A DNA stretch of 64,000 nucleotides. Origin: Candidatus Eiseniibacteriota bacterium (lineage in GTDB: Bacteria; Eisenbacteria; RBG-16-71-46; CAIMUX01; WJJG01). The position numbers were made by a program, and so were the translations under genes. Shown one piece after another: positions 3,036-15,519 of this stretch (position 1 is its first letter; every line of letters begins with the position of its first letter). The notes beneath the pieces were generated by a model. It made no database searches. It saw nothing but the letters and a program-made list of their open reading frames with translations, and was not told the origin of the DNA. The stretch lies in assembly GCA_023129715.1 (NCBI GenBank), contig JAGMBO010000004.1, positions 1 to 64,000 on the forward strand, given 5' to 3'.

Positions 3036-3125
3036 ATTGTGACTCCGAGCCGAGCCTCTTTCGGGGGAAGGGTACAGGATGAAGAGCAGAGCGCGATTGC
3101 GGGCAGGCAGCCGGGGGATAGGGCA

Positions 3126-4175
3126 ATGAGACAACGCCTCGCGGTGATACTGGGTCTGGCGGTCGCCCTCGGGGCGTCCTCCAGCCAGGGCGAATGGAGA
3201 ATGATGATCCACAGGGGCGAGACGACTGAGGAATATGCCGCGGCAGAAGTGGACAGCATTACATTCGTTGACGTTCCCGTGCCGCCCCCGATGGTTTTTG
3301 TGCCTGCGGGGTTTTTCGTAATGGGCGATGGGTCGGCCCACTGCGGCATAGACGAGCGCGAGGTAGTCCTGACGCGGGGTTTCTACATAGGGCAGCGCGA
3401 GGTGACGAATCAGGAGTACCTGGATGCCCTGCAGTGGGCATATGACAGGGGGTACGTGACGGCCAGCGTTGCATCCGCGAATGATCATCTCGACGGGAGC
3501 AGCGCCCAGCTCTTGGAGCTTGCCGATGAGGACTGCGAGATCCAGTTCGATGGCGAGAAGTCATTCTTCCTCCGCGAGGCTCCTTCTGGCTATGCACAAG
3601 CCGCCTATCCTCAGGGCTACAGCCCCGCCAAACACCCAGTGAAAGAAGTGACCTGGCAGGGGGCAACTCGGTATTGCGACTGGCTCAGCATGCAAGCTGG
3701 ATTGCCTCGAGCCTATGAGCACGGCGGGGACTGGTCGTGCAATGGTGGCGATCCCTACGCCGCAGAGGGGTATCGGCTACCCACGGATGCGGAGTGGGAA
3801 TATGCTGCCCAGTATGATGATGAGCGTGCCTACCCAAGCGGAAACGTGGATCCGGACTGCAGTCAGGCGAACTACGAGGGGTGTATCGGGTGGACTGCGC
3901 CGTTGGGTAGCTACGCGGTTGCGCCTGAGGCACTGGGGTTGGCGGACATGGCCGGGAACATGTGGGAGTGGTGCGACGACTGGTACGTCTGTGACTTGGG
4001 CACGGCATCTGAGATAGATCCTGTCGGTGCAATGGCAGGCTCAACACGTGTCGTTCGTGGGGGCGTTTGGTATCACGCACGGAGCTACATGCGCTGCGCC
4101 TTCCGAACGGATCGTGAGCCGAGCCACACAAGCGGCGGCCATGGCTTTCGGATCGCCCGAACGGCTGCGCGCTGA
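3126..4175 (+). CDS. Exported SUMF1/FGE-fold protein, probably without FGE activity (copy 1)
   Basis: The 349-residue reading starts at MRQRLAVILGLAV, chosen because the two paralogues at 7246 and 9129 start at the same MRR/MRQ signal peptide after a purine-rich site. After cleavage near GEW comes a short module ending VDSITF. A formylglycine-generating-enzyme (SUMF1) fold follows: FVPAGFFVMG, EVTNQEYLDA, YRLPTDAEWEYAA, DMAGNMWEWCDDW, and GFRIART at the end. The paired catalytic cysteines of true FGE (human C336 and C341) have no equivalents; the matching stretch reads YHARSYMRCAFR. It is more likely a structural or binding member of the fold, as in many SUMF1-like proteins outside sulfatase maturation. 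No sulfatase gene is nearby. Confidence 0.8.
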   Translation: MRQRLAVILGLAVALGASSSQGEWRMMIHRGETTEEYAAAEVDSITFVDVPVPPPMVFVPAGFFVMGDGSAHCGIDEREVVLTRGFYIGQREVTNQEYLDALQWAYDRGYVTASVASANDHLDGSSAQLLELADEDCEIQFDGEKSFFLREAPSGYAQAAYPQGYSPAKHPVKEVTWQGATRYCDWLSMQAGLPRAYEHGGDWSCNGGDPYAAEGYRLPTDAEWEYAAQYDDERAYPSGNVDPDCSQANYEGCIGWTAPLGSYAVAPEALGLADMAGNMWEWCDDWYVCDLGTASEIDPVGAMAGSTRVVRGGVWYHARSYMRCAFRTDREPSHTSGGHGFRIARTAAR

Positions 4176-4199
4176 GAACCTAAGGACGGGAGCACTGGT

Positions 4200-4283
4200 A
4201 TGCGAGCAATCACCTGCCTTGTCAGAATCATTACCCCAGCGTTGTTTTTTCGTGATTGGCCCAGATATGAACGGGGGGCCTAA
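4200..4283 (+). CDS. Possible 27-residue leader ORF coupled to the next gene
   Basis: A short frame begins MRAITCLVRIITPALFF and stops with TAA, overlapping the ATG of the next gene as TAATG. A GGGAG sits about 8 bases before its start. The hydrophobic start resembles a signal peptide. It could be a translational coupling leader, the relic of another secreted gene, or chance. Confidence 0.2.
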   Translation: MRAITCLVRIITPALFFRDWPRYERGA

Positions 4284-6541
4284 TGCGAGTCATCGTAGCG
4301 ATCTTCGTTCTCATCAGCTGTGGGTTCCTATTCGGCATGTGTGCTAAGGCCGAGCAAGTCGTTTTCGATTTCGAGAACGGCCCGGGACCGCTGTTTGAAA
4401 TCCCGAACACGGCCGATCTGTGGACCATCGACTGCGACGGACCCAATCTGCGCATCAGTAAGCCTGAAGACCCGCTCACCGTGAATCCCAACGGGTTCAT
4501 CGCGGGTGGCATTCGATCCAGGTTCTGGGTCAACGGTGACTTCAGTGTCACGGTCGATTACGAATTGTCCACGTTCCAGCGTGATCCTTCCAATGGAAGC
4601 ACACTGAATGAATCCATTCTGGGAGTGCAGGATGCGGTTTCCCAGCTATTCGAGGTGCTCAGGTTCGCGCATGGCTCGTCGGATCAGAGAATCGAGGCAT
4701 ACGGGCCCGATGCTCCCATAGGCGCGCAAGACCCTCCGCCTGAGGTCCTATGGGCTGGTCGCTATCGGGTGACCCGCGTCGGTGAGACAATGACAGGGGC
4801 ATTTGCACCCTTGGGCAGCGAGGTCTTCACATCCTTGGGATCTGCGGGGGGCTACGGCGGTCCCGTGCAGGTCATTTGCATTGGCGCGCAAGGCGTGGGA
4901 AGGGTCGATCGAGAGCGGGCGAACACGGCGCTCGACATTGCCTTTGATAACCTGATTATCGATGGGCTGATCAGTTACCCGCCCACTACGCACCGCGTCC
5001 ACGCTGATGGCTCTGGAGGTTACCCTACGATTCAGGATGCGATCAACGCAGCCGCAGATGGCGACACAGTTCTGCTAGCCAATGGCATCTTTACCGGTGA
5101 CGGAAACCGAGATGTCGACTTCCTCGGGAAGGCAATCGTCGTCATGTCGGAGAGCGGAAGTCCTGATGACTGCATCGTCGACTGTGGCGGGTCAGCCGTG
5201 GATCCCCATCGCGGGTTCTGGTTCCACAGCGGGGAAGGTCCGGGATCTGTGCTGAGTGGGGTGACGGTCAGAAACGGGTATGCCGACAATGGAGCAGGCT
5301 TTCTCTGCGAGGAAGGCAGCTCGCCGCATCTTAGCTCTTGTAGGATCAGGGCCAACACGGCTACGAACATTGGTGGAGGAGCCTACTGCCACCATTGCTC
5401 GCCCACATTCCTAGAGTGTGACTTTCGGGACAACGCCGCCGCCGGAGGAGGGGGGATCTACGCATATGCCACTGTCGACCTCCGGCTTGAGGAATGTCGA
5501 GTGACGGGCAGCGCCGTGCCGGGAGAGGGCGGAGGGCTTTGCTTGCAGAGTGAGTTCACGACGCACCTGACCGACTGCGTGATCATAGAGAACACCAGCT
5601 ACGAAGGAGGTGGTGGGGTCTACTGCCGAGAGGGCGATCTAGTCGTGACCGGAGGCGAGATCTCCGGCAACGCTAGCGGAATCCACGGAGGGGGTATCCT
5701 CCTAGAACTGTCCTCGGCCGTGATCGACAGCTGCGTTATGTCCGACAATGCAACTTCTCAAGTGGGCGGTGGCATCTTCTTATCGGCGGGCACAGAGCTT
5801 ACCATTACAAACTCGACACTCATTGAGAACTGGGCTACGGCTAGCGGGGGAGCAATTGGCGGAGTGGAGTGCACTCTCACCATCGATGGCTGCACAATGG
5901 CATTGAACGGTGCAAACCAAGGTGGAGCGGTCTACCTCTATTCAGACTACGCAATGCCCACCCCATTCATTCAGAACACCGTCATTGCGCTGAGCATTGA
6001 CGGGGGGGCGGTTCGCAATACCCTTTTCGCTACCCCACAGTTTGCCTGCTGTGACATCTACGGCAACGATGGAGGGGACTGGGTGAGTTTCATTGCGGGT
6101 CAACTCGGCACCAACGGCAACTTCTCCGCCGACCCCTGCTTCTGCGATGCCGAGAACGGCGACTACCACCTCTGGAACTACTCGCCCTGCAACCAGCAGG
6201 GGTGTGGTCTCATCGGCGCTTGGCCGGTCGGATGCGAGGATCCGCAGGTGTTGGGGCCGGAGCCCCAGACGCGGGCCTTGTGGGCGAGCGTGTCGCCGAA
6301 CCCCGTATCGGGGACCGCCCACATCCGGTACGTCCTCCCCACCCCCGCCGCCGCCACCCTCACCATCTACGACCCCGCCGGGCGGGTGGTGCGGAGGATG
6401 ATGAGCCGGGGGCAGGCCAGCGGCACGCTGTCGTGGGATGCCACCGACGCGCTGGGACATCGGGTGGCTGCAGGGGCGTACTTTCTGAGATTGAGCATTG
6501 GGGAGGAGGAGGTAGTGAGGAGGGTCACGATCGTCCGATAG
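4283..6541 (+). CDS. Secreted beta-helix protein with N-terminal lectin/LamG-like region and C-terminal sorting domain
   Basis: This is a 752-residue exported protein. Residues 1 to about 23 form a signal peptide (MRVIVAIFVLISCGFLFGMC). Residues about 25-230 form a beta-rich region (VVFDFENGPGPLFEIP to ALDIAFDNLIIDG) resembling a jelly-roll or LamG-like domain; this is inference. Residues about 235-650 are one beta-helix module with the same VHADGSGGYPTIQDAINAA opening and SADPCFCDAENGDYHL closing blocks as the gene at 645. The C-terminus (IYDPAGRVVRRMM to AYFLRLSIGEEEVVRRVTIVR) is a FlgD-Ig/T9SS-like sorting domain. Its coding sequence at 6371-6406 is repeated exactly at 10193-10228. The start overlaps the stop of the short frame at 4200 and follows GGGGGG. 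Confidence 0.85.
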   Translation: MRVIVAIFVLISCGFLFGMCAKAEQVVFDFENGPGPLFEIPNTADLWTIDCDGPNLRISKPEDPLTVNPNGFIAGGIRSRFWVNGDFSVTVDYELSTFQRDPSNGSTLNESILGVQDAVSQLFEVLRFAHGSSDQRIEAYGPDAPIGAQDPPPEVLWAGRYRVTRVGETMTGAFAPLGSEVFTSLGSAGGYGGPVQVICIGAQGVGRVDRERANTALDIAFDNLIIDGLISYPPTTHRVHADGSGGYPTIQDAINAAADGDTVLLANGIFTGDGNRDVDFLGKAIVVMSESGSPDDCIVDCGGSAVDPHRGFWFHSGEGPGSVLSGVTVRNGYADNGAGFLCEEGSSPHLSSCRIRANTATNIGGGAYCHHCSPTFLECDFRDNAAAGGGGIYAYATVDLRLEECRVTGSAVPGEGGGLCLQSEFTTHLTDCVIIENTSYEGGGGVYCREGDLVVTGGEISGNASGIHGGGILLELSSAVIDSCVMSDNATSQVGGGIFLSAGTELTITNSTLIENWATASGGAIGGVECTLTIDGCTMALNGANQGGAVYLYSDYAMPTPFIQNTVIALSIDGGAVRNTLFATPQFACCDIYGNDGGDWVSFIAGQLGTNGNFSADPCFCDAENGDYHLWNYSPCNQQGCGLIGAWPVGCEDPQVLGPEPQTRALWASVSPNPVSGTAHIRYVLPTPAAATLTIYDPAGRVVRRMMSRGQASGTLSWDATDALGHRVAAGAYFLRLSIGEEEVVRRVTIVR

Positions 6542-6610
6542 GACGGCGCTGTGAGTGGACTGATTAGGGCGAAATAGCAAGAGACGAACCGCGCAACAGA
6601 GGAGACAGCC

Positions 6611-7177
6611 ATGCGAGTTCTGACCATCGCTGCAGTTGGAGTCATGATCGCCATCTCTCTCCCCATCCTCGTACGACCAGCGGCGGCCGACGAGCCAATG
6701 CTCGCCATTCGGCAGGTAGGCGGGGAGAGTGCGGTCTACGCTATCGCTGAGATCACCCGGCTTGAGTTTGAAGGTGATACCCTCTTCGTAGTGGCCTCCT
6801 ATGGACCTGACCGCTTCGCCAACGAAGACATCGAGAAGATTGAGTTCCTGTGGGGCTTCTCGGACGTCGAGGACCCCGATGAGATCGTGGCGGCCTTCAA
6901 GGCCATTCATCTGTTCCAGAACCAACCTAATCCCTTCTCGCCGGAGACTCGCATCGATTTCGAGCTTCGCACGGGGGGCCCTGTGGAGTTGGCGATCTAC
7001 GAAGTCAACGGGCGTCTGATCCGTTCCTTGCTGAAGGAGGAGCGCGCAGCTGGACCGCATACCATACGGTGGGACGGCCGAGATGATGATGGCCGCAAGG
7101 TGGCCAGCGGAGTCTATTTCTATAGCCTGACGACCCCTGGAGTTCAAGAGAGCAGGCAGATGATCCTGCTGCCGTGA
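6611..7177 (+). CDS. Small secreted sorting-domain protein (copy 1)
   Basis: A 188-residue exported protein with a signal peptide of about 26 residues (MRVLTIAAVGVMIAISLPIL). The signal is followed by two short hairpin-like stretches ending ITRLEF and DIEKIEF. The same kind of D-I-x-x-I-x-F element begins the neighbouring SUMF1 proteins. Residues about 97-188 are a classical T9SS type A/FlgD-Ig domain: NQPNPFSPETRIDFEL, ELAIYEVNGRLIRSLL, TIRWDGRDDDG, GVYFYSL and QMILLP. There is no room for another catalytic domain, so it is probably a surface or matrix component or an adaptor. It is a close paralogue of the gene at 8494. The start follows GAGGAGA. Confidence 0.8.
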   Translation: MRVLTIAAVGVMIAISLPILVRPAAADEPMLAIRQVGGESAVYAIAEITRLEFEGDTLFVVASYGPDRFANEDIEKIEFLWGFSDVEDPDEIVAAFKAIHLFQNQPNPFSPETRIDFELRTGGPVELAIYEVNGRLIRSLLKEERAAGPHTIRWDGRDDDGRKVASGVYFYSLTTPGVQESRQMILLP

Positions 7178-7245
7178 TCGGCGGGACAAGAGTGAGCGAC
7201 GAAACCAACAGGCTTCATTGTAGGCAGCGGGAGGAGGATAGCTCA

Positions 7246-8301
7246 ATGAGACGATGCATCCTAGTGCTGATGGGCCTTGTGTTCGTCCTTGGCGCAACCG
7301 CGAGCCAGGGGGAATGGAAGATGCGGGTAGAGCACGCAACTGGGGCGGATGAGCTCGCTCTGTCTGATGTCGATAACATCACCTTCCATGACAGGCCACG
7401 AATGGTCGCGGTTCCGGCAGGCGTCTTCACCATGGGGGACGGCGAGTCCTACTGTGGAGTCAACGAGCGACAGGTGACGCTGACACGCGATTTCTATTTG
7501 AGTTGCCATGAGATAACGAACCGGCAATACATGCATGCTCTCCAGTGGGCGTATGATCATGGCTATGTGACGGCCACAACAGGCTCGGCAGATGACAATC
7601 TGGACGGGAGTACCGTGCGGCTTGTGGAACTCGGCGATGAGGATTGCGAGATCGCGTTCGATGGAGCAGGCGGCTTCCACCTGCGGGAATCGCCTTCTGG
7701 CTATGCGCAAGGAGCGTATCCGGGAGGGTATGATCCATCGAGTCACCCGGTCATGAAAGTGTCGTGGTATGGAGCCGCTCGCTACTGCGACTGGTTGAGT
7801 CTGCTGGTAGGATTTCCGCGGGCGTACCAGCACGGCGGCGACTGGTCCTGCAATGGCGGAGATCCGTACGGAGCCGCAGGCTACCGGTTACCGACGGATG
7901 CAGAATGGGAGTATGCGGCACAGTTCGATGACGAGCGACTCTATCCCTGGGGAAACGCCGAGCCTCACTGCGGCCGAGCCAATTACCACCCGAATCCAGA
8001 CCCCAGGTGCATAGGTTGGACCTCTCCAGTGGGGAGCTATCCGGAAGCTCCGCAGATTTTGGAACTCGCGGACATGGCAGGGAATGTATGGGAGTACTGC
8101 AACGATTGGTTCTCCTGCGACCTAGGGACTGCATCGGTCACAGACCCTGCAGGTCCGGGCAGTGGATCAGACCGTGTCATGCGTAGCGGCTCCTGGTACA
8201 ACTACGCGATGTCGTTGCGCTGTGCCATGCGATTTGGCTATGTTCCTCAATTCCCTCCAGACAACACTGGTTTTCGAATTGCACGGACCATGAGTCCATG
8301 A
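7246..8301 (+). CDS. Exported SUMF1/FGE-fold protein (copy 2)
   Basis: The 351-residue reading starts MRRCILVLMGLVFVLGATAS after GGGAGGAGGA. The mature part begins GEWKMRVEHATG and ends its first module with VDNITF. The SUMF1 fold follows, closely parallel to the gene at 3126: VPAGVFTMGDG, EITNRQYMHALQWAYDHGYV, YRLPTDAEWEYAAQFDDER, ADMAGNVWEYCNDW and GFRIART. The region corresponding to the FGE active site reads WYNYAMSLRCAMR and lacks the catalytic cysteine pair. It lies directly downstream of a small sorting-domain gene, as does the third copy, so the two probably form a co-expressed pair. Confidence 0.8.
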   Translation: MRRCILVLMGLVFVLGATASQGEWKMRVEHATGADELALSDVDNITFHDRPRMVAVPAGVFTMGDGESYCGVNERQVTLTRDFYLSCHEITNRQYMHALQWAYDHGYVTATTGSADDNLDGSTVRLVELGDEDCEIAFDGAGGFHLRESPSGYAQGAYPGGYDPSSHPVMKVSWYGAARYCDWLSLLVGFPRAYQHGGDWSCNGGDPYGAAGYRLPTDAEWEYAAQFDDERLYPWGNAEPHCGRANYHPNPDPRCIGWTSPVGSYPEAPQILELADMAGNVWEYCNDWFSCDLGTASVTDPAGPGSGSDRVMRSGSWYNYAMSLRCAMRFGYVPQFPPDNTGFRIARTMSP

Positions 8302-8320
8302 TGCTCGGATCTCCAGCTGT

Positions 8321-8425
8321 AGTGCCACCGACGCGCTCGGGCAGAGAGTGGCGGCGGGAGTGTACCTCCTGAGGCTCTGCGTCGGGGAAGATGAAGTAGT
8401 GCGTGGGCTCGTGATCGCCCGCTAG
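8321..8425 (+). pseudogene. Remnant C-terminal tail of a beta-helix/sorting-domain gene
   Basis: An open stretch of 34 codons reads SATDALGQRVAAGVYLLRLC and then EDEVVRGLVIAR, ending in TAG. It matches the last residues of the beta-helix protein at 4283 (ATDALGHRVAAGAYFLRLSI, EEEVVRRVTIVR). It has no start codon or upstream domain. The bases just after the stop (GACGG...) also resemble those after the 4283 gene, which likewise precede a small sorting-domain gene. It is best read as the surviving end of a deleted beta-helix gene. Confidence 0.75.
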
Positions 8426-8493
8426 GACGGACCTGGAATCGACTGGAGAAAGGATCATAGCGGGGACAAACCACGCAACATCGGAGGAGAATC

Positions 8494-9060
8494 ATGCGAG
8501 TTTTCACCATCGTCGTAGTTGGTGTCATGATCGTCATCTCTCTCCCCATCCTCGTGCGGTCAGCAGTGGCCGATGAGCCGATGCTCGCGATCCGACAGGT
8601 GGGGGGCGAGAGTTCGATCTACGCGATTGCCGAAGTGACCCGACTCGGGTTCGATGGCGACAGCCTCGTCGTCGTGGCTACCTATGGTCCTGACCGCTTC
8701 GCCACCGACAAGATCGAGAAGATCGAGTTCCTGTGGGGCTTCTCGGGCGTCGAGAACCCCGATGAGATCGTCACCGCCTTTGGAGCTATTCACCTATTCC
8801 AGAATCAACCCAACCCATTCTCGCCGGAGACACGGATCGACTTCGAGCTTGCGAAGGCGGGTCCCGTGGAGTTGGCGATCTACGAGGTCAACGGGCGTCT
8901 GATCCGCTCCCTGCTGAGGGAGGAACGCATCGCCGGGAAGCACACGGTGCAGTGGGACGGCCGCGATGATGATGGCAACAAGGTTTGTGGCGGGGTCTAC
9001 TTCTACAACCTGACTGCCCCCGGAGTTCGAGAGAGCAGGCAGATGATCCTGCTGCCGTGA
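8494..9060 (+). CDS. Small secreted sorting-domain protein (copy 2)
   Basis: The protein has 188 residues, the same length and layout as the gene at 6611: a signal peptide (MRVFTIVVVGVMIVISLPIL), two short elements ending VTRLGF and KIEKIEF, and a T9SS type A/FlgD-Ig domain from NQPNPFSPETRIDFEL to QMILLP. Differences are mostly conservative substitutions. A strong ribosome site, GGAGGAG, precedes the ATG. It is followed at 9129 by a SUMF1-fold gene, repeating the 6611-7246 arrangement. Confidence 0.8.
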   Translation: MRVFTIVVVGVMIVISLPILVRSAVADEPMLAIRQVGGESSIYAIAEVTRLGFDGDSLVVVATYGPDRFATDKIEKIEFLWGFSGVENPDEIVTAFGAIHLFQNQPNPFSPETRIDFELAKAGPVELAIYEVNGRLIRSLLREERIAGKHTVQWDGRDDDGNKVCGGVYFYNLTAPGVRESRQMILLP

Positions 9061-9128
9061 TCGCAGCGGGCAGGAACGTGGGATGCAGCAAAGGGCGAGA
9101 TCACAAGCAGCGGGAGGAGGATCCAGCA

Positions 9129-10097
9129 ATGAGACGGCGCACCCTGATGATGTTGGGCCTGGCGCTGGCTCTTGGCGTCACGGCGAGCCATGGTGATTGG
9201 AGAGTGCGAGTTCACGAGGGGGCGAGCGTGACGAAGTTCACGGTGTCCGACATCGACAGACTGACCTTCTACCAGGCTACGCTTCAAGAGATGGTCTGGA
9301 TCCCGGCAGGCAATGTTCGCATGGGCCAGACCGGGATCGCGGAGCCCGTGCACGATTTCTATGTCGAGGGCTTCTACATCGATGTGCGCGAGGTCAGCAA
9401 CGAGGAGTACGAGGAATTCATTGACGCGGGGGGATACACCACCGAAGCATGGTGGAACCCGGTCGGCTGGGCCTGGAAGGTGACGGCCAACATCACGCTG
9501 CCGAACGGATGGAATGAAGACGCCCGCCACGGCGGCGGCATCCCCGGCAACGAGAACTTTCCGGTGAACGGCGTCTCCTGGTGGGAGGCGGACGCCTACT
9601 GCCGCTGGGCGGGCAAGCGGTTGCCGACCGAGGCGGAGTGGGAGAAGGTGGCCAAGGGAGGTTGCGAGACCCACGGGGATCCGGGCCAGTGCGACGTCTC
9701 GGACACGCCGACCTACCCCTGGGGCGAGGGGATCAGCGGCCTGCGAGCCAACTACTACCAGAGCGGCGACCCATACGACAACAACTCGACACCTGTCGGC
9801 TACTACGATGGCAGCAACCACGGCGGCTACCAGACGATCGACAGCCCGAGTCCGTATGGGCTCTACGATGTGGCGGGGAACCTCTGGGAGTGGGGCAGTA
9901 CGAAGTACGCCAGTTACCCTTACAACCCGAACGATGGGCGGGAGAACCTGCCCGCGACTTTCAACGAGTGCTGCCGAATGCTGCGCGGGGGCTCGTGGCA
10001 AGACGGCACGGACTACATGCGCTGCGCGTACCGCCTCAGCCACATGCCGGACGGTCGCAACAGCACCTTCGGTTTTCGTTGCGCGAGGACCGATTGA
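9129..10097 (+). CDS. Exported SUMF1/FGE-fold protein (copy 3, divergent)
   Basis: This copy has 322 residues, starting MRRRTLMMLGLALALGVTAS after GGGAGGAGGA. The mature N-terminus GDWRVRVHEGAS and DIDRLTF match the short module of the other two copies. The SUMF1 fold then diverges and is nearer to general PvdO/EgtB-like members: WIPAGNVRMGQ, EVSNEEYEEFIDAGGY, NFPVNGVSWWEADAYCRWAG, KRLPTEAEWEKVAKGG, DVAGNLWEWGS, MLRGGSWQDGTDYMRCAYR and FGFRCART. The catalytic FGE cysteine pair is absent. A frameshifted sorting-domain remnant lies about 95 bases downstream. Confidence 0.8.
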   Translation: MRRRTLMMLGLALALGVTASHGDWRVRVHEGASVTKFTVSDIDRLTFYQATLQEMVWIPAGNVRMGQTGIAEPVHDFYVEGFYIDVREVSNEEYEEFIDAGGYTTEAWWNPVGWAWKVTANITLPNGWNEDARHGGGIPGNENFPVNGVSWWEADAYCRWAGKRLPTEAEWEKVAKGGCETHGDPGQCDVSDTPTYPWGEGISGLRANYYQSGDPYDNNSTPVGYYDGSNHGGYQTIDSPSPYGLYDVAGNLWEWGSTKYASYPYNPNDGRENLPATFNECCRMLRGGSWQDGTDYMRCAYRLSHMPDGRNSTFGFRCARTD

Positions 10098-10713: not shown

Positions 10714-11571
10714 ATGAAGAGAAACATGGCAGTTAGAGCTGAGGCTGCAGGCGCCATTGCACGGTTGGGGATACCAATCCTTGCCGGGATCCTACTTGTG
10801 TCTGTGGTGGTCGCATGGGGGGACACGGATCTACCCCCCGAGGCTGCGGCAGGAGCTCAGATGTCTGAAGCCGAGGCACAGTATCGCGAAGCGATTCGTC
10901 CAAACCAGATCCCAGAGGGTTCTGACGATGCAGTCCGAAGCGGTGTTGTAATCCTTTACGGCGCATGGCTTGAACCACCCTACGCAATCTCCATTCTCGA
11001 CCAAGAGCTCTTCTTGAACGGTGTACGCATCGATCCCCCCATTGTTCCTCCCTGGAAAGGAGGTCGGGACCACGTCGAACCTTCTGAGATTGGACGTCAG
11101 ATCTCAGAGTCGAGCGGGCGTATTCGGACTGCGTACGCGGATCTCAAGAGAGAGAAACAGACCCGAGAACTCCAGATGGCTCTATTAGAATACATTGCGG
11201 ATGCCGAGGGATCGGTGCGGAGGGCGGAATGGGAGACGCGTGACAGACTGCACATAGTGATGGTCGAAGGTGCGGAGTTCTCTATCAACTTGGCTGAGGG
11301 CCCAGAGATTCATGACCCGACCCAGGTTCGGAATGAGATCCTCCTTGAAGCCAAGCAGCGGTATGAAAGGAGTCTGGATGCAGGCGCGCTTCTGGTGATC
11401 GGGTGCGGAGCCGTGCTCACGGTCCCCAGCACAGATGTTGAGGACGCCCGCAGGCAGATTGAGCAAGCCTTGGAGGAGCGTTCTCTGGACAGAATGAAGC
11501 AGACACTGCACGATCGCGAGCTGGTCAAGGAAGTCCTCTTTCTGCATGGCATTCCGATGGGGGAGGAATAG
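10714..11571 (+). CDS. Exported protein of unknown function, coupled to the VWA protein gene
   Basis: The 285-residue reading starts MKRNMAVRAEAAGAIARLG after AAAGGAGATTGTG. A hydrophobic segment at about 22-38 (IPILAGILLVSVVVAW) is a signal peptide or anchor. The rest is charged and partly helical: a middle coiled stretch (about 130-165, RQISESSGRIRTAYADLKRE) and a C-terminal helix (about 245-280). Phrases such as YGAWLEPPYAISILDQELFLN and MVEGAEFSINLAEG are not recognised as a known domain. It ends 3 bases before the 1314-residue VWA protein gene, so the two are very probably co-transcribed and may act together, for example as a partner or regulator. Confidence 0.7.
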   Translation: MKRNMAVRAEAAGAIARLGIPILAGILLVSVVVAWGDTDLPPEAAAGAQMSEAEAQYREAIRPNQIPEGSDDAVRSGVVILYGAWLEPPYAISILDQELFLNGVRIDPPIVPPWKGGRDHVEPSEIGRQISESSGRIRTAYADLKREKQTRELQMALLEYIADAEGSVRRAEWETRDRLHIVMVEGAEFSINLAEGPEIHDPTQVRNEILLEAKQRYERSLDAGALLVIGCGAVLTVPSTDVEDARRQIEQALEERSLDRMKQTLHDRELVKEVLFLHGIPMGEE

Positions 11572-11574
11572 ATC

Positions 11575-14500
11575 ATGAATCTTCGCCTGAGTCAAGTACT
11601 GCTGGCATGCGTAGTCGTTGCGTTGTCGTTTACAAGTGCCTTTGGCCAAAATGAGACACCGTCCAGCCGTGTGGCAGTCGTCGTTGCGCCGGTGCGGTTT
11701 CAGGCTGACAGGGGTGAGGCCATCTTCCTCTCGGAGACTGGCGATCCCAGTGGGCAGCGCTATCTCACTCTGTCTCTGCAGGAGACTGCAGACCCTGGAC
11801 TCAATCCCCTAATTGACTTATTAGATCACATCGAGCGAGTCGACGGAACGTACTCAACTGGTATTCTCCTTCATACGGGCCACGGCGGAACGGGCGGCGT
11901 GATCATGATGGAGAGTTTCCGCGGAGACGATGCGCAGGCGACAACAGCTTGTCAGGATCGGCTGGAGGAGTATGAGAACGCAGGCTGGGACGTGAGCGGC
12001 ACTGACAGGGAGATCGCCTCCTACCAGCACGAGACTGGCTGGTGGGCCATCCTCATGTACGCGCAGGCCATCCACAACCGGGGGGATGGCCTGTTGACAG
12101 ACCATCCTATCGTCTACATCGCCGCGTGTCACGGGGCAGATATCGGACCCGCATACGTTGCAGAGGGGGCGCGCGTTGCCTTGGGTCCCAGCGTCACTCT
12201 GCTTTCCAGCGAGAATCGAGCTAGGGTGGAGAGATTCTTCCGGCGCATGAATGGACGCGATGGGCAAGCGGCCCGAACTGTGGCAGCGGCGCGCAGCGTA
12301 CTGACCCAAATGGGAGCGACTGGGGCAGAGAATACGACGCTTGCACCATCAGTATTGAGCCTGGATGTTCCGGATCGGATCCATGCAGGGGATGAGATTA
12401 CTGTCACACTTGATACAGCATGCGATCAGAGCATCGTACCCGATATCGTCGGTACGAATTGTACAATCGCAAATGTGAGTTGGGTGAATTCCACAACATT
12501 GCGAGGCACATGCACAACCCCAAGTCCTCCGGGGGTTAGCAACTTCACAATAACGCTGAAGTGGAATGACGTGTACAGTGTCAATAACACAGCTCGCTTG
12601 GACGGGAACACTAATCCGCCGGGAACTAACGCAGAGGGGCCAGCACACGACGACTATGTTGAGGAATTCACTGGCCCTGAGGCTTGCATTGCGTACATCC
12701 TCGACCGATCCGGTTCCATGCAGGGTGTGCCGCTGTTGGGCGCGAAGTTCGCTGCGAACGTGGGGATCACGCTCATGCGCGAGCAGGATGAAGTCGGGGT
12801 CGTTTCCTTTAGCAGTACGGCACGGGTCAACTATCCGAGAACGAGGATCACAGGCGATGCAGTCCGAGCGGCAGCGAGGGCAGCAGTGAACAGCCTATCG
12901 GCAAGCGGAATGACATCCATCGGAGCGGGATTGCTGACGGGCTACAACCAGCTCGCAAGTTCGGAGGCGACTAGGCGCAACTACCTGCTTCTTTCTGATG
13001 GCAAGGAGAACACAGCGCCCTGGGCTCGCGATATCTTGCCACTGTTCCTGAACCTGAACCAGTTGTCCCAGAAGATGTTTGTCAGTGGCGGTGTGGGGGC
13101 AACAGTGGAGGAAGAGATCGATCACACGATCCACTCGATCGCATATGGTCCTGGTGCAGACCAGGTGCTTCTTGCAGAACTGGCCAATGCGACGGGCGGG
13201 ATATTTCTCTTTTCGCCTTCGGTCACCGATCCCCTGGAGCTGGCGAACATCTTCTTCACGATCCAGGGTGAGATATCCGATGAACAGAGGTTCGCATCCT
13301 ATGAGGGCCATGTCGTGGCTCCCGCGGTGGAGACTGTCCCTTTCCTGATCGGTCCTGACGTGGTCGAAGAGACTGTGTCCCTGATCTGGGATGGCACCGG
13401 CAACGAACTCTCTCTCGCGCTCGAACGCCCGGACTCTGAGATCATGGATGGCAGCAACTATGAGAGTTATCCAGGTGTGACGAGAGTCCAGGGACCTGGC
13501 ATCGAGTACTTCACGATCACGAGCCCGATGCAGGGTGACTGGATTGCTCAGATCACAGCGCACAGCGGCAGTTTCAACTACGCGCTGATCCTGAGCGGCC
13601 TGAGCACCATCCGGATGGAATTGGCGTTCGATCGGGACGCTTACGGAGTCGGGGTGCCTATAGGAATCACCGCCACTGTGATGGAGGGTACAGAGCCGAT
13701 TCTCGGAGCAACCGTCACGGCCGCAGTGCAGACTCCCACCGCCGCGGCCCTCCTTGTGAGTTCCAGCGAAGGGGACGACCGCGAGTCAGTGTCGACGGAG
13801 CTGCAATGGGGTCCAGAGAAAGGGACTCTAGTCGATTCGGAGGGAAGAGTCCTGTATCGAGAGGCAAATATCATCCTCTTCGATGATGGAGCGCACGGTG
13901 ACGGCGGCGCTGACGACGGCGTCTACGGAGCCTACTTCGCGGATACAGACATCGAGGGAAGCTATACCTTCCGTGTGACGGGCACCGGGTTTACGCCGTC
14001 CGGTCAGGAATTCGCACGTGATGCGACAAGATCCACTGTCGTCACTGCCTCCGCCAATCAGCCTCCGGAGATTGTCAGTGTGGATCCCGCATCCCAGGAG
14101 GTGCAGTACAGCGACGGCGTTGCTCCCGTAACGATCACCGTCACCGATCCCGACGGCGATCCAATCGTCGTCTCGGCGAATCCGACGCTCGACGCGCTCG
14201 TTCTGACTCAGACCGACACCGACACCTGGGTGCTTTCAGGCCAAATGCTGCAGTCCGCCAATGTCTATGAGGTCGCGCTGACGGCGAACGATGGCCAAGC
14301 GGACAGCGATCCAGTGACCGTCACGATCACCGTGGTCCCCGAGCATGCGAGGGTCGCGTTCGACAACAGCAACCCGCTGGAGGTCCAGGTCCCCGTACCC
14401 CGTGGCAACAGCGGACCGTTTTCTCTCAGCTTCAACATCGCCGAGTTCGACAATCCTGACGATGTCCAGGGTGACGCTAACCTTGCTGGTGACATCGGTC

Positions 14501-15519
14501 TTGCCACCGTGACCGTCCGGCTGGTACCAGTGGGGCCCGGGGGAAACGTTGACCCTGCCGATGTGGCCTCGATGATCAATCCTGGGACGGCCGATCCGGA
14601 AAGTCCCTTCGATTACGGTGTACGCACCCTTGAGTGTAGCTTCGATAACGTGCCAGTGAACACATACTCAGTAGTTGTGGAGATCGATCAGTCCGGGTTC
14701 TACGCGGGTGATGGGGAGGACGTTCTGGTCGTAGCGGATCCCTCTCTCGGATTTGTCACCGGAGGCGGACACTTCTACTGGCCCGGAACGGAGGATCCGG
14801 ATACCGGCTATCCCGGTGACCGGACGAACTGTGGGTTCAACGTCAAGTACAAAGGGAGGACCGGGAACAACGCAAAGGGTGCTCTGCTGATGATCCGGCA
14901 CTTAATCGATGAGACCCGGTATCGGCTTAAGAGCAACGCCATGAACGGTCTCGCGATCGGGGAGTCTCAGGACGGGGACCTGACATTCGGTTGGGCATCG
15001 TTCGTTGGCAAGGCTACCTACAAGGAGCCCGGATGGGAAGAGCCGATTGGCAACTACGAGTTCACGGCCTACATTGAAGATCGCGGAGAGCCTGGGGCTG
15101 GAAGCGACCGCTTCTGGATCCAGGTTCTGGATCGAGATGACGAGGTCGTGCCAGATCTCTCGTTTGCCGAACCTGCAACGGTCAATGCAGTCACGATCAC
15201 TGGTGGCAACATTGCCGTGCCCCATGGGGCCGAGGAAATGCGGGGCGACATGCCGAAGGCGGTTGGGTCCGAATCGAATCTCCCCAGGCTGTCTAGCTCA
15301 GGGACGACAATCCGCTTCCAGATTCCCGAGCCCACACATGTGCGGATACTCGTCTACGACGTGACGGGCAGGGAAGTGGCGCGTCTGGTCGATGGCCCCA
15401 TGGCAGCAGGATCCTACGAGCGATCGTGGCAGGCATCTAACCTTGCCAGCGGCATCTACGTCTGCCGGATGCAGGCGGGCTCCTTCACCGCGACGAGGCG
15501 AATGATGCTTCTCAAGTGA
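11575..15519 (+). CDS. Secreted multidomain protein: caspase-fold peptidase-like domain, VWA, Ig-like modules, post-COAP-1-like module, sorting tail
   Basis: The protein has 1314 residues. Residues 1 to about 24 are a signal peptide. Residues about 30-240 resemble clan CD peptidases: LLHTGHGG gives a His-Gly motif (H103) and IVYIAACHGAD a hydrophobic block plus Cys (C185). Residues about 368-560 form a VWA domain with a complete MIDAS pattern (DRSGS at 377-381, MTSIG, SDGKEN). After that come a choice-of-anchor-like region (DDGAHGDGGADDGVYGAYF), a cadherin/Ig-like module (NQPPEIVSVDP to VTVTITVV), and a module ending in VTGGGHFYWPG, CGFNVKYKGR and RLKSNAMNGLAIG that resembles post-COAP-1 domains. 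The last 75 residues (VRILVYDVTGREVARLVDGP to RRMMLLK) are a FlgD-Ig/T9SS-like tail. It is likely a cell-surface or secreted self-processing or adhesion protein. The peptidase assignment is motif-based. Confidence 0.8.
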   Translation: MNLRLSQVLLACVVVALSFTSAFGQNETPSSRVAVVVAPVRFQADRGEAIFLSETGDPSGQRYLTLSLQETADPGLNPLIDLLDHIERVDGTYSTGILLHTGHGGTGGVIMMESFRGDDAQATTACQDRLEEYENAGWDVSGTDREIASYQHETGWWAILMYAQAIHNRGDGLLTDHPIVYIAACHGADIGPAYVAEGARVALGPSVTLLSSENRARVERFFRRMNGRDGQAARTVAAARSVLTQMGATGAENTTLAPSVLSLDVPDRIHAGDEITVTLDTACDQSIVPDIVGTNCTIANVSWVNSTTLRGTCTTPSPPGVSNFTITLKWNDVYSVNNTARLDGNTNPPGTNAEGPAHDDYVEEFTGPEACIAYILDRSGSMQGVPLLGAKFAANVGITLMREQDEVGVVSFSSTARVNYPRTRITGDAVRAAARAAVNSLSASGMTSIGAGLLTGYNQLASSEATRRNYLLLSDGKENTAPWARDILPLFLNLNQLSQKMFVSGGVGATVEEEIDHTIHSIAYGPGADQVLLAELANATGGIFLFSPSVTDPLELANIFFTIQGEISDEQRFASYEGHVVAPAVETVPFLIGPDVVEETVSLIWDGTGNELSLALERPDSEIMDGSNYESYPGVTRVQGPGIEYFTITSPMQGDWIAQITAHSGSFNYALILSGLSTIRMELAFDRDAYGVGVPIGITATVMEGTEPILGATVTAAVQTPTAAALLVSSSEGDDRESVSTELQWGPEKGTLVDSEGRVLYREANIILFDDGAHGDGGADDGVYGAYFADTDIEGSYTFRVTGTGFTPSGQEFARDATRSTVVTASANQPPEIVSVDPASQEVQYSDGVAPVTITVTDPDGDPIVVSANPTLDALVLTQTDTDTWVLSGQMLQSANVYEVALTANDGQADSDPVTVTITVVPEHARVAFDNSNPLEVQVPVPRGNSGPFSLSFNIAEFDNPDDVQGDANLAGDIGLATVTVRLVPVGPGGNVDPADVASMINPGTADPESPFDYGVRTLECSFDNVPVNTYSVVVEIDQSGFYAGDGEDVLVVADPSLGFVTGGGHFYWPGTEDPDTGYPGDRTNCGFNVKYKGRTGNNAKGALLMIRHLIDETRYRLKSNAMNGLAIGESQDGDLTFGWASFVGKATYKEPGWEEPIGNYEFTAYIEDRGEPGAGSDRFWIQVLDRDDEVVPDLSFAEPATVNAVTITGGNIAVPHGAEEMRGDMPKAVGSESNLPRLSSSGTTIRFQIPEPTHVRILVYDVTGREVARLVDGPMAAGSYERSWQASNLASGIYVCRMQAGSFTATRRMMLLK

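Follow-up and report, generated by a model that had tools for sequence, protein, structure and literature searches.

Gingipains are the textbook secreted enzymes of peptidase clan CD. The best-known CHAT enzymes are intracellular and belong to defence and CRISPR-linked systems, and the CHAT enzymes of solved structure function within intracellular systems that also comprise TPR or sensor domains. The catalytic dyad of clan CD consists of a His and a Cys located at the ends of strands beta3 and beta4 (PMC4357240). CLCA proteins (protease, VWA and beta-sandwich) carry, according to PMC10669480, a protease domain of the HEXXH zinc type. Here we describe a locus in a 64-kb stretch of DNA (hereafter the window, meaning the whole stretch analysed) that encodes a clan CD-like domain, a VWA module and a T9SS-type sorting tail in a single chain, preceded by a partner gene. 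The protease family, its partner and the domain exchange reported below are new. Among the papers searched, none combined a CHAT domain, type IX secretion and a caspase-like protein, and, at the level of titles and abstracts, there was no description of this protease family.

Architecture of the window protein

The gene is a single open reading frame with an ATG start (11575-15519, +; 1314 aa), whose product was divided into the following segments.

11575..11649, +: signal peptide, residues 1-25 (approximate; hydrophobic stretch with a SAFGQ end, by sequence reading)
11650..12315, +: clan CD (caspase/haemoglobinase-fold) domain, residues 26-247 (AF2 model, Foldseek, profile-profile score)
11881..11883, +: H103 (putative active-site His)
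12127..12129, +: C185 (putative active-site Cys)
12316..12672, +: Ig-like (beta-sandwich) domain, residues 248-366, common to the family (all-beta in the model; conserved in homologues)
12673..13269, +: VWA domain with complete MIDAS (PF00092; local TIGR00868 match)
13270..14064, +: post-VWA beta region, CLCA-like, boundaries approximate (NF041940; hCaCC matches in two stretches)
14065..14358, +: Ig/cadherin-like domain, residues 831-928 (weak; sub-threshold Big_9 and He_PIG, boundary by inspection)
14359..15294, +: residues 929-1240, no domain assigned (nothing above the Pfam cut-off)
15295..15516, +: T9SS type A / FlgD-Ig-like sorting tail, residues 1241-1314 (TIGR04183; SprA in the same genome)

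The initial annotation had proposed a VWA domain with a complete MIDAS and a FlgD-Ig/T9SS-like tail, and both were confirmed. PF00092 matched residues 372-527 (Pfam, E=1.6e-9), and the five metal ligands (DxSxS, T, D) are all present as D377, S379, S381, T447 and D475. In the tail, TIGR04183 scored 25.5 bits against a cut-off of 23 (NCBIfam), with its Pfam counterparts PF18962 (20.4) and FlgD_ig (19.4) both below their cut-off of 27. The choice-of-anchor X motif (NF041940) was found at residues 766-802 (37.8 bits, cut-off 25; NCBIfam). TIGR00868 (hCaCC, NCBIfam) gave a local match (6.5e-15), with 54 bits against a whole-length cut-off of 900.85, and no full-length CLCA match. Residues 26-258 matched no Pfam family at E<=10; PF01364 (C25) was without a match in this segment (E<=10) or in the whole window protein, and the same held for PF12770 (CHAT) and Peptidase_C14 in the domain and in the whole protein.

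Fold of the N-terminal domain

A His block (HTGHGG, H103) and a Cys block (AACHGAD, C185) had been read as fitting clan CD, and both residues stand at exactly the positions claimed. An AF2 model of residues 26-367, computed from an input alignment of only 12 rows, reached a pLDDT of 75.8 and a pTM of 0.78, with model residues 16-31, 45-53 and 56-68 poorly predicted. Its elements follow the order strand-His, helix, strand-Cys, helix, strand; H103 comes directly after model strand 72-76 and C185 directly after model strand 154-158, which is where the clan CD dyad is expected.

Searched against the PDB with Foldseek, the model matched SAVED-CHAT best (E=1.2e-4, probability 1.00), followed by TPR-CHAT and other CHAT entries, caspase-11, separase and legumain; caspase-3 was also present. 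TM-scores were low (0.39 at most among the top entries), perhaps owing to the Ig domain within the query. One further match below 0.001 was TssM (E=2.3e-4, about 115 columns); because TssM also gave a weak sequence match, covering domain-profile positions 214-294, which correspond to the Ig part, we infer that this fold match reflects the Ig domain. When PDB sequences were searched with the domain profile, nothing significant was obtained.

In hhalign, the H103/C185 pair coincided with the His and Cys of CHAT, and in the alignment with C25 C185 fell in the C25 Cys region. When the domain profile was compared with profiles of CHAT and C25 sequences from this group, P values were marginal (0.026 and 0.034), with C25 scoring about as high as CHAT; the scores against both exceeded 200 of 200 column shuffles, and the reversed-profile control was low. 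Taken together, the model, the fold search, the alignment of the dyad and the shuffle controls make membership of the N-terminal domain in clan CD a well-supported prediction. The structure prediction thus returned a caspase-haemoglobinase-type fold and not a different one, and the proposed clan CD fit of the two blocks finds agreement in the AF2 model, Foldseek and the conservation of the dyad. Sequence gives no secure choice between a CHAT-like and a C25-like domain; of the two, CHAT is the one favoured by the fold search.

Relatives and conservation of the dyad

A single-domain search of 99 related genomes identified one relative, in G007, a genome from the same taxonomic order (29% identity, E=2.3e-7). 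Stepwise profiles then recovered relatives in at least three more phyla, so that the family spans at least four phyla. It is rare: 10 of 385 sampled genomes matched, two of them in the Ig part alone. Scanning named genomes with the C25-like domain carried by most relatives (see below) returned five loci, four of which had been found before, and so added one relative; among the taxa represented were Candidatus Eisenbacteria, a Gemmatimonadetes bacterium and unclassified bacteria. A separate scan with the window domain, over named genomes that may not include the window's own, revealed no close relative.

The His is kept in 16/16 members and the Cys in 15/16, so the conservation check on homologues revealed no general loss of either residue. 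When the window domain was aligned with 10 homologues (14-31% identity to it), seven of the 395 columns were invariant, and H103 and C185 are among these. This invariance and retention argue that the match to the dyad is more than chance. The one member that deviates at the Cys position, L062, has Ala there and comes from the same class as the window genome; the HG motif is altered to HS in L024 and to HA in L064.

Exchange of the rear half

Behind the N-terminal and Ig domains, most relatives carry a C25-like domain (PF01364, with E values as low as 2.8e-35) and a FlgD-type tail. Scored by alignment to C25 sequences from the window's own genome, this C25-like domain keeps its Cys in 15/15 cases and its His in 0/15, the place of GHG being mostly occupied by SNR. 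The active-site pair of these proteins therefore most likely resides in the N-terminal domain. G343 encodes the N-terminal domain with a TIG domain and no C25, and among the members examined the VWA version was found in the window protein only. In the window copy, a CLCA-like VWA module takes the place of the C25-like half of the relatives.

In two relatives from different genera, the C25-like domain has an in-frame TGA codon at a shared position (L027:4768-4770, -; L041:3196-3198, -). Past the TGA, the two sequences are 62% identical, with a pS of 0.79 (synonymous change saturated) and a pN of 0.26, indicating purifying selection. By inspection, the TGA aligns without gaps with a Cys of L026 and L104. 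A hairpin (CCTTCAC-GGC-GTGAAGG in L027) lies 17 nt past the TGA, although the region shows no conspicuous folding energy. No tRNA-Sec, SelA or SelB was seen in 1.02 Mb, about one third of G181. Selenocysteine is a candidate reading of this codon.

An upstream partner gene

The initial annotation made no mention of a second gene, co-encoded upstream, whose stop lies 3 nt before the ATG of the protease gene:

10714..11571, +: partner, 285 aa (signal-like N-terminus; start set by ribosome-binding site and homology)

Partner homologues occupy the same upstream position in loci of several phyla, with gaps between partner and protease of -20 to +14 nt in 12 homologous loci. With a threshold of E<1e-3, leave-one-out profiles recovered 12 of the 13 partner sequences, the exception being L061 (E=9.3); the partner of L104 was assigned by eye only. 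The partner matched nothing in Pfam, NCBIfam or PADLOC, and for its AF2 model (pTM 0.54) no PDB entry reached an E value under 0.25. When the partner profile was used for an independent search, it recovered the protease loci again, together with at least four partner genes that have no protease behind them (G026, G320, G022:C7 and G383). Loci in which no caspase-like gene follows the partner-family gene are listed here.

L093:4018-5745, -: partner domain forming the N-terminal part of a 576-aa frame
L095:4920-5819, -: partner-family gene
L096:1152-2213, +: partner-family gene
L097:4826-5590, -: partner-family gene

The pairing is therefore strong from the protease side and non-exclusive from the partner side. 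Among genomes with the protease, G343 is the sole one without a partner-profile match. The protease family is a two-gene cassette with a small, putatively exported partner, whose gene in nearly every case immediately precedes that of the protease. In one locus (L030:2871-3810, G007:C30), the partner gene is followed by only the first ~64 residues or so of a caspase-like protein; L030 closely resembles L011 and is either a broken copy or an assembly artefact.

Genomic context

A gingipain-like secreted enzyme had been expected to be unusual in this type of bacterium. That expectation did not hold: the 4.8-Mb genome of the window contains 18 Peptidase_C25, 8 CHAT and 45 sorting-tail matches as well as SprA (PF14349, 3.2e-22, G000:C152), and with these a secreted clan CD enzyme is in keeping with the bacterium. 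All eight CHAT matches lie on other contigs. One of eight inspected C25 domains of this genome, L069, has GWA instead of the GHG His motif.

Three genes with an FGE-sulfatase domain lie within 3039-10097 of the window (3039-4175, 7174-8301 and 8985-10097). The latter two are each preceded by a gene for a 188-aa FlgD-tail protein (6611-7177 and 8494-9060), forming a repeated two-gene pattern. GC content is ~0.59 in the first 16 kb of the window and 0.64-0.71 past 20 kb. PADLOC gave no match to anti-phage defence, and we rejected such a role on this ground.

Interpretation and alternatives

We consider it fairly probable that the window protein belongs to an unnamed family of exported clan CD cysteine peptidases with a fold nearest to CHAT, that its activity is under the control of the partner and that its rear half directs it to its targets. 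Partner and protease would both cross the inner membrane via Sec. In the periplasm the partner, whose gene comes first and is tightly coupled to that of the protease, would bind either the protease domain or the complete chain and would keep the protease inactive or aid its folding. The sorting tail would then route the protease through the T9SS to the cell surface, where the H103/C185 dyad may cleave proteins or its own chain, at targets selected by the variable rear half. In the window copy, the CLCA-like VWA module would bind a ligand via the MIDAS metal.

The main rival to the peptidase reading takes the clan CD domain as a non-catalytic binding module or scaffold with structural His and Cys residues, the chain being a surface adhesin built of beta and VWA modules. 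Inactivation does occur in this group, as seen from the loss of the His in all 15 C25-like domains, and individual members lack the Cys (L062) or the glycine of HG (L024 and L064). However, His and Cys are among the only seven columns invariant across 11 divergent members and occupy the catalytic places of the modelled fold, and we regard a pseudo-enzyme as unlikely. An ordinary gingipain of family C25 is far less probable still. It would belong to the same clan, hhalign sets C185 on the C25 Cys region, and C25 domains are plentiful in the genome; yet PF01364 matched neither the domain alone nor the whole protein, for which reason C25 membership was rejected, the His and Cys are 82 residues apart, and other family members carry a separate C25-like domain besides the N-terminal one. 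Of the term "gingipain-like", the assignment to the same clan stands, whereas membership in C25 does not, the N-terminal domain matching no C25 model. Equally improbable are chance motifs within an unrelated fold: the domain lacks a Pfam match and members share low sequence identity, but conservation, model, fold search and profile comparison all speak against coincidence.

A different question concerns the partner: instead of inhibiting or chaperoning the peptidase, it might serve as its substrate or as a cofactor secreted along with it. Tight pairing suits any obligate functional pair, and members of the partner family are also found where the protease is missing; on the other hand, gene order and tight coupling suit regulator or chaperone pairs, without proving them. 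We hold the substrate or cofactor alternative to be somewhat unlikely.

Extending the peptidase reading to the whole family, we tentatively propose, a shade short of calling it probable, that candidate phyla harbour a previously undescribed family of clan CD peptidases that are exported and whose genes are almost invariably paired with that of a dedicated regulator, likewise exported and with a new fold. Most members would carry a live CHAT-like domain and a His-less C25-like domain; in the window copy the second half would have been swapped for a metal-binding VWA, thereby re-aiming the protease head. Such a family offers a small, testable protease-partner pair; should the partner prove to be an inhibitor, its fold would be new among inhibitors of clan CD.

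Comparison with known systems

Among known systems, the CHAT enzymes (SAVED-CHAT, TPR-CHAT/Csx29; PF12770) provide the best fold match to the N-terminal domain, and the THG and A-C motifs as well as a subsequent F-[FY]-x-x-[LM]-x-x-G segment align in hhalign. Unlike them, the window protein has no PF12770 match and is predicted to be exported T9SS cargo carrying an Ig domain. Gingipains and other Peptidase_C25 members (PF01364, including PorU) share the clan and the T9SS-type tail, and most relatives contain a C25-like domain; however, the N-terminal domain lies outside C25, relatives have a C25-like domain that is His-less, and the window protein is C25-free. With CLCA proteins (TIGR00868), the window protein shares the VWA match, a second matching stretch downstream and a protease preceding the VWA, but the matches are local only and a clan CD domain stands where CLCA has a zinc protease. 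Orthocaspases, metacaspases and caspases (C14) have the clan CD fold, with caspase-11 and caspase-3 among the Foldseek matches, whereas the window protein lacks a Peptidase_C14 match and has a predicted extracellular architecture. The combination of a CHAT-like head, T9SS export and, in relatives, a His-less C25-like domain would bridge CHAT enzymes and gingipains.
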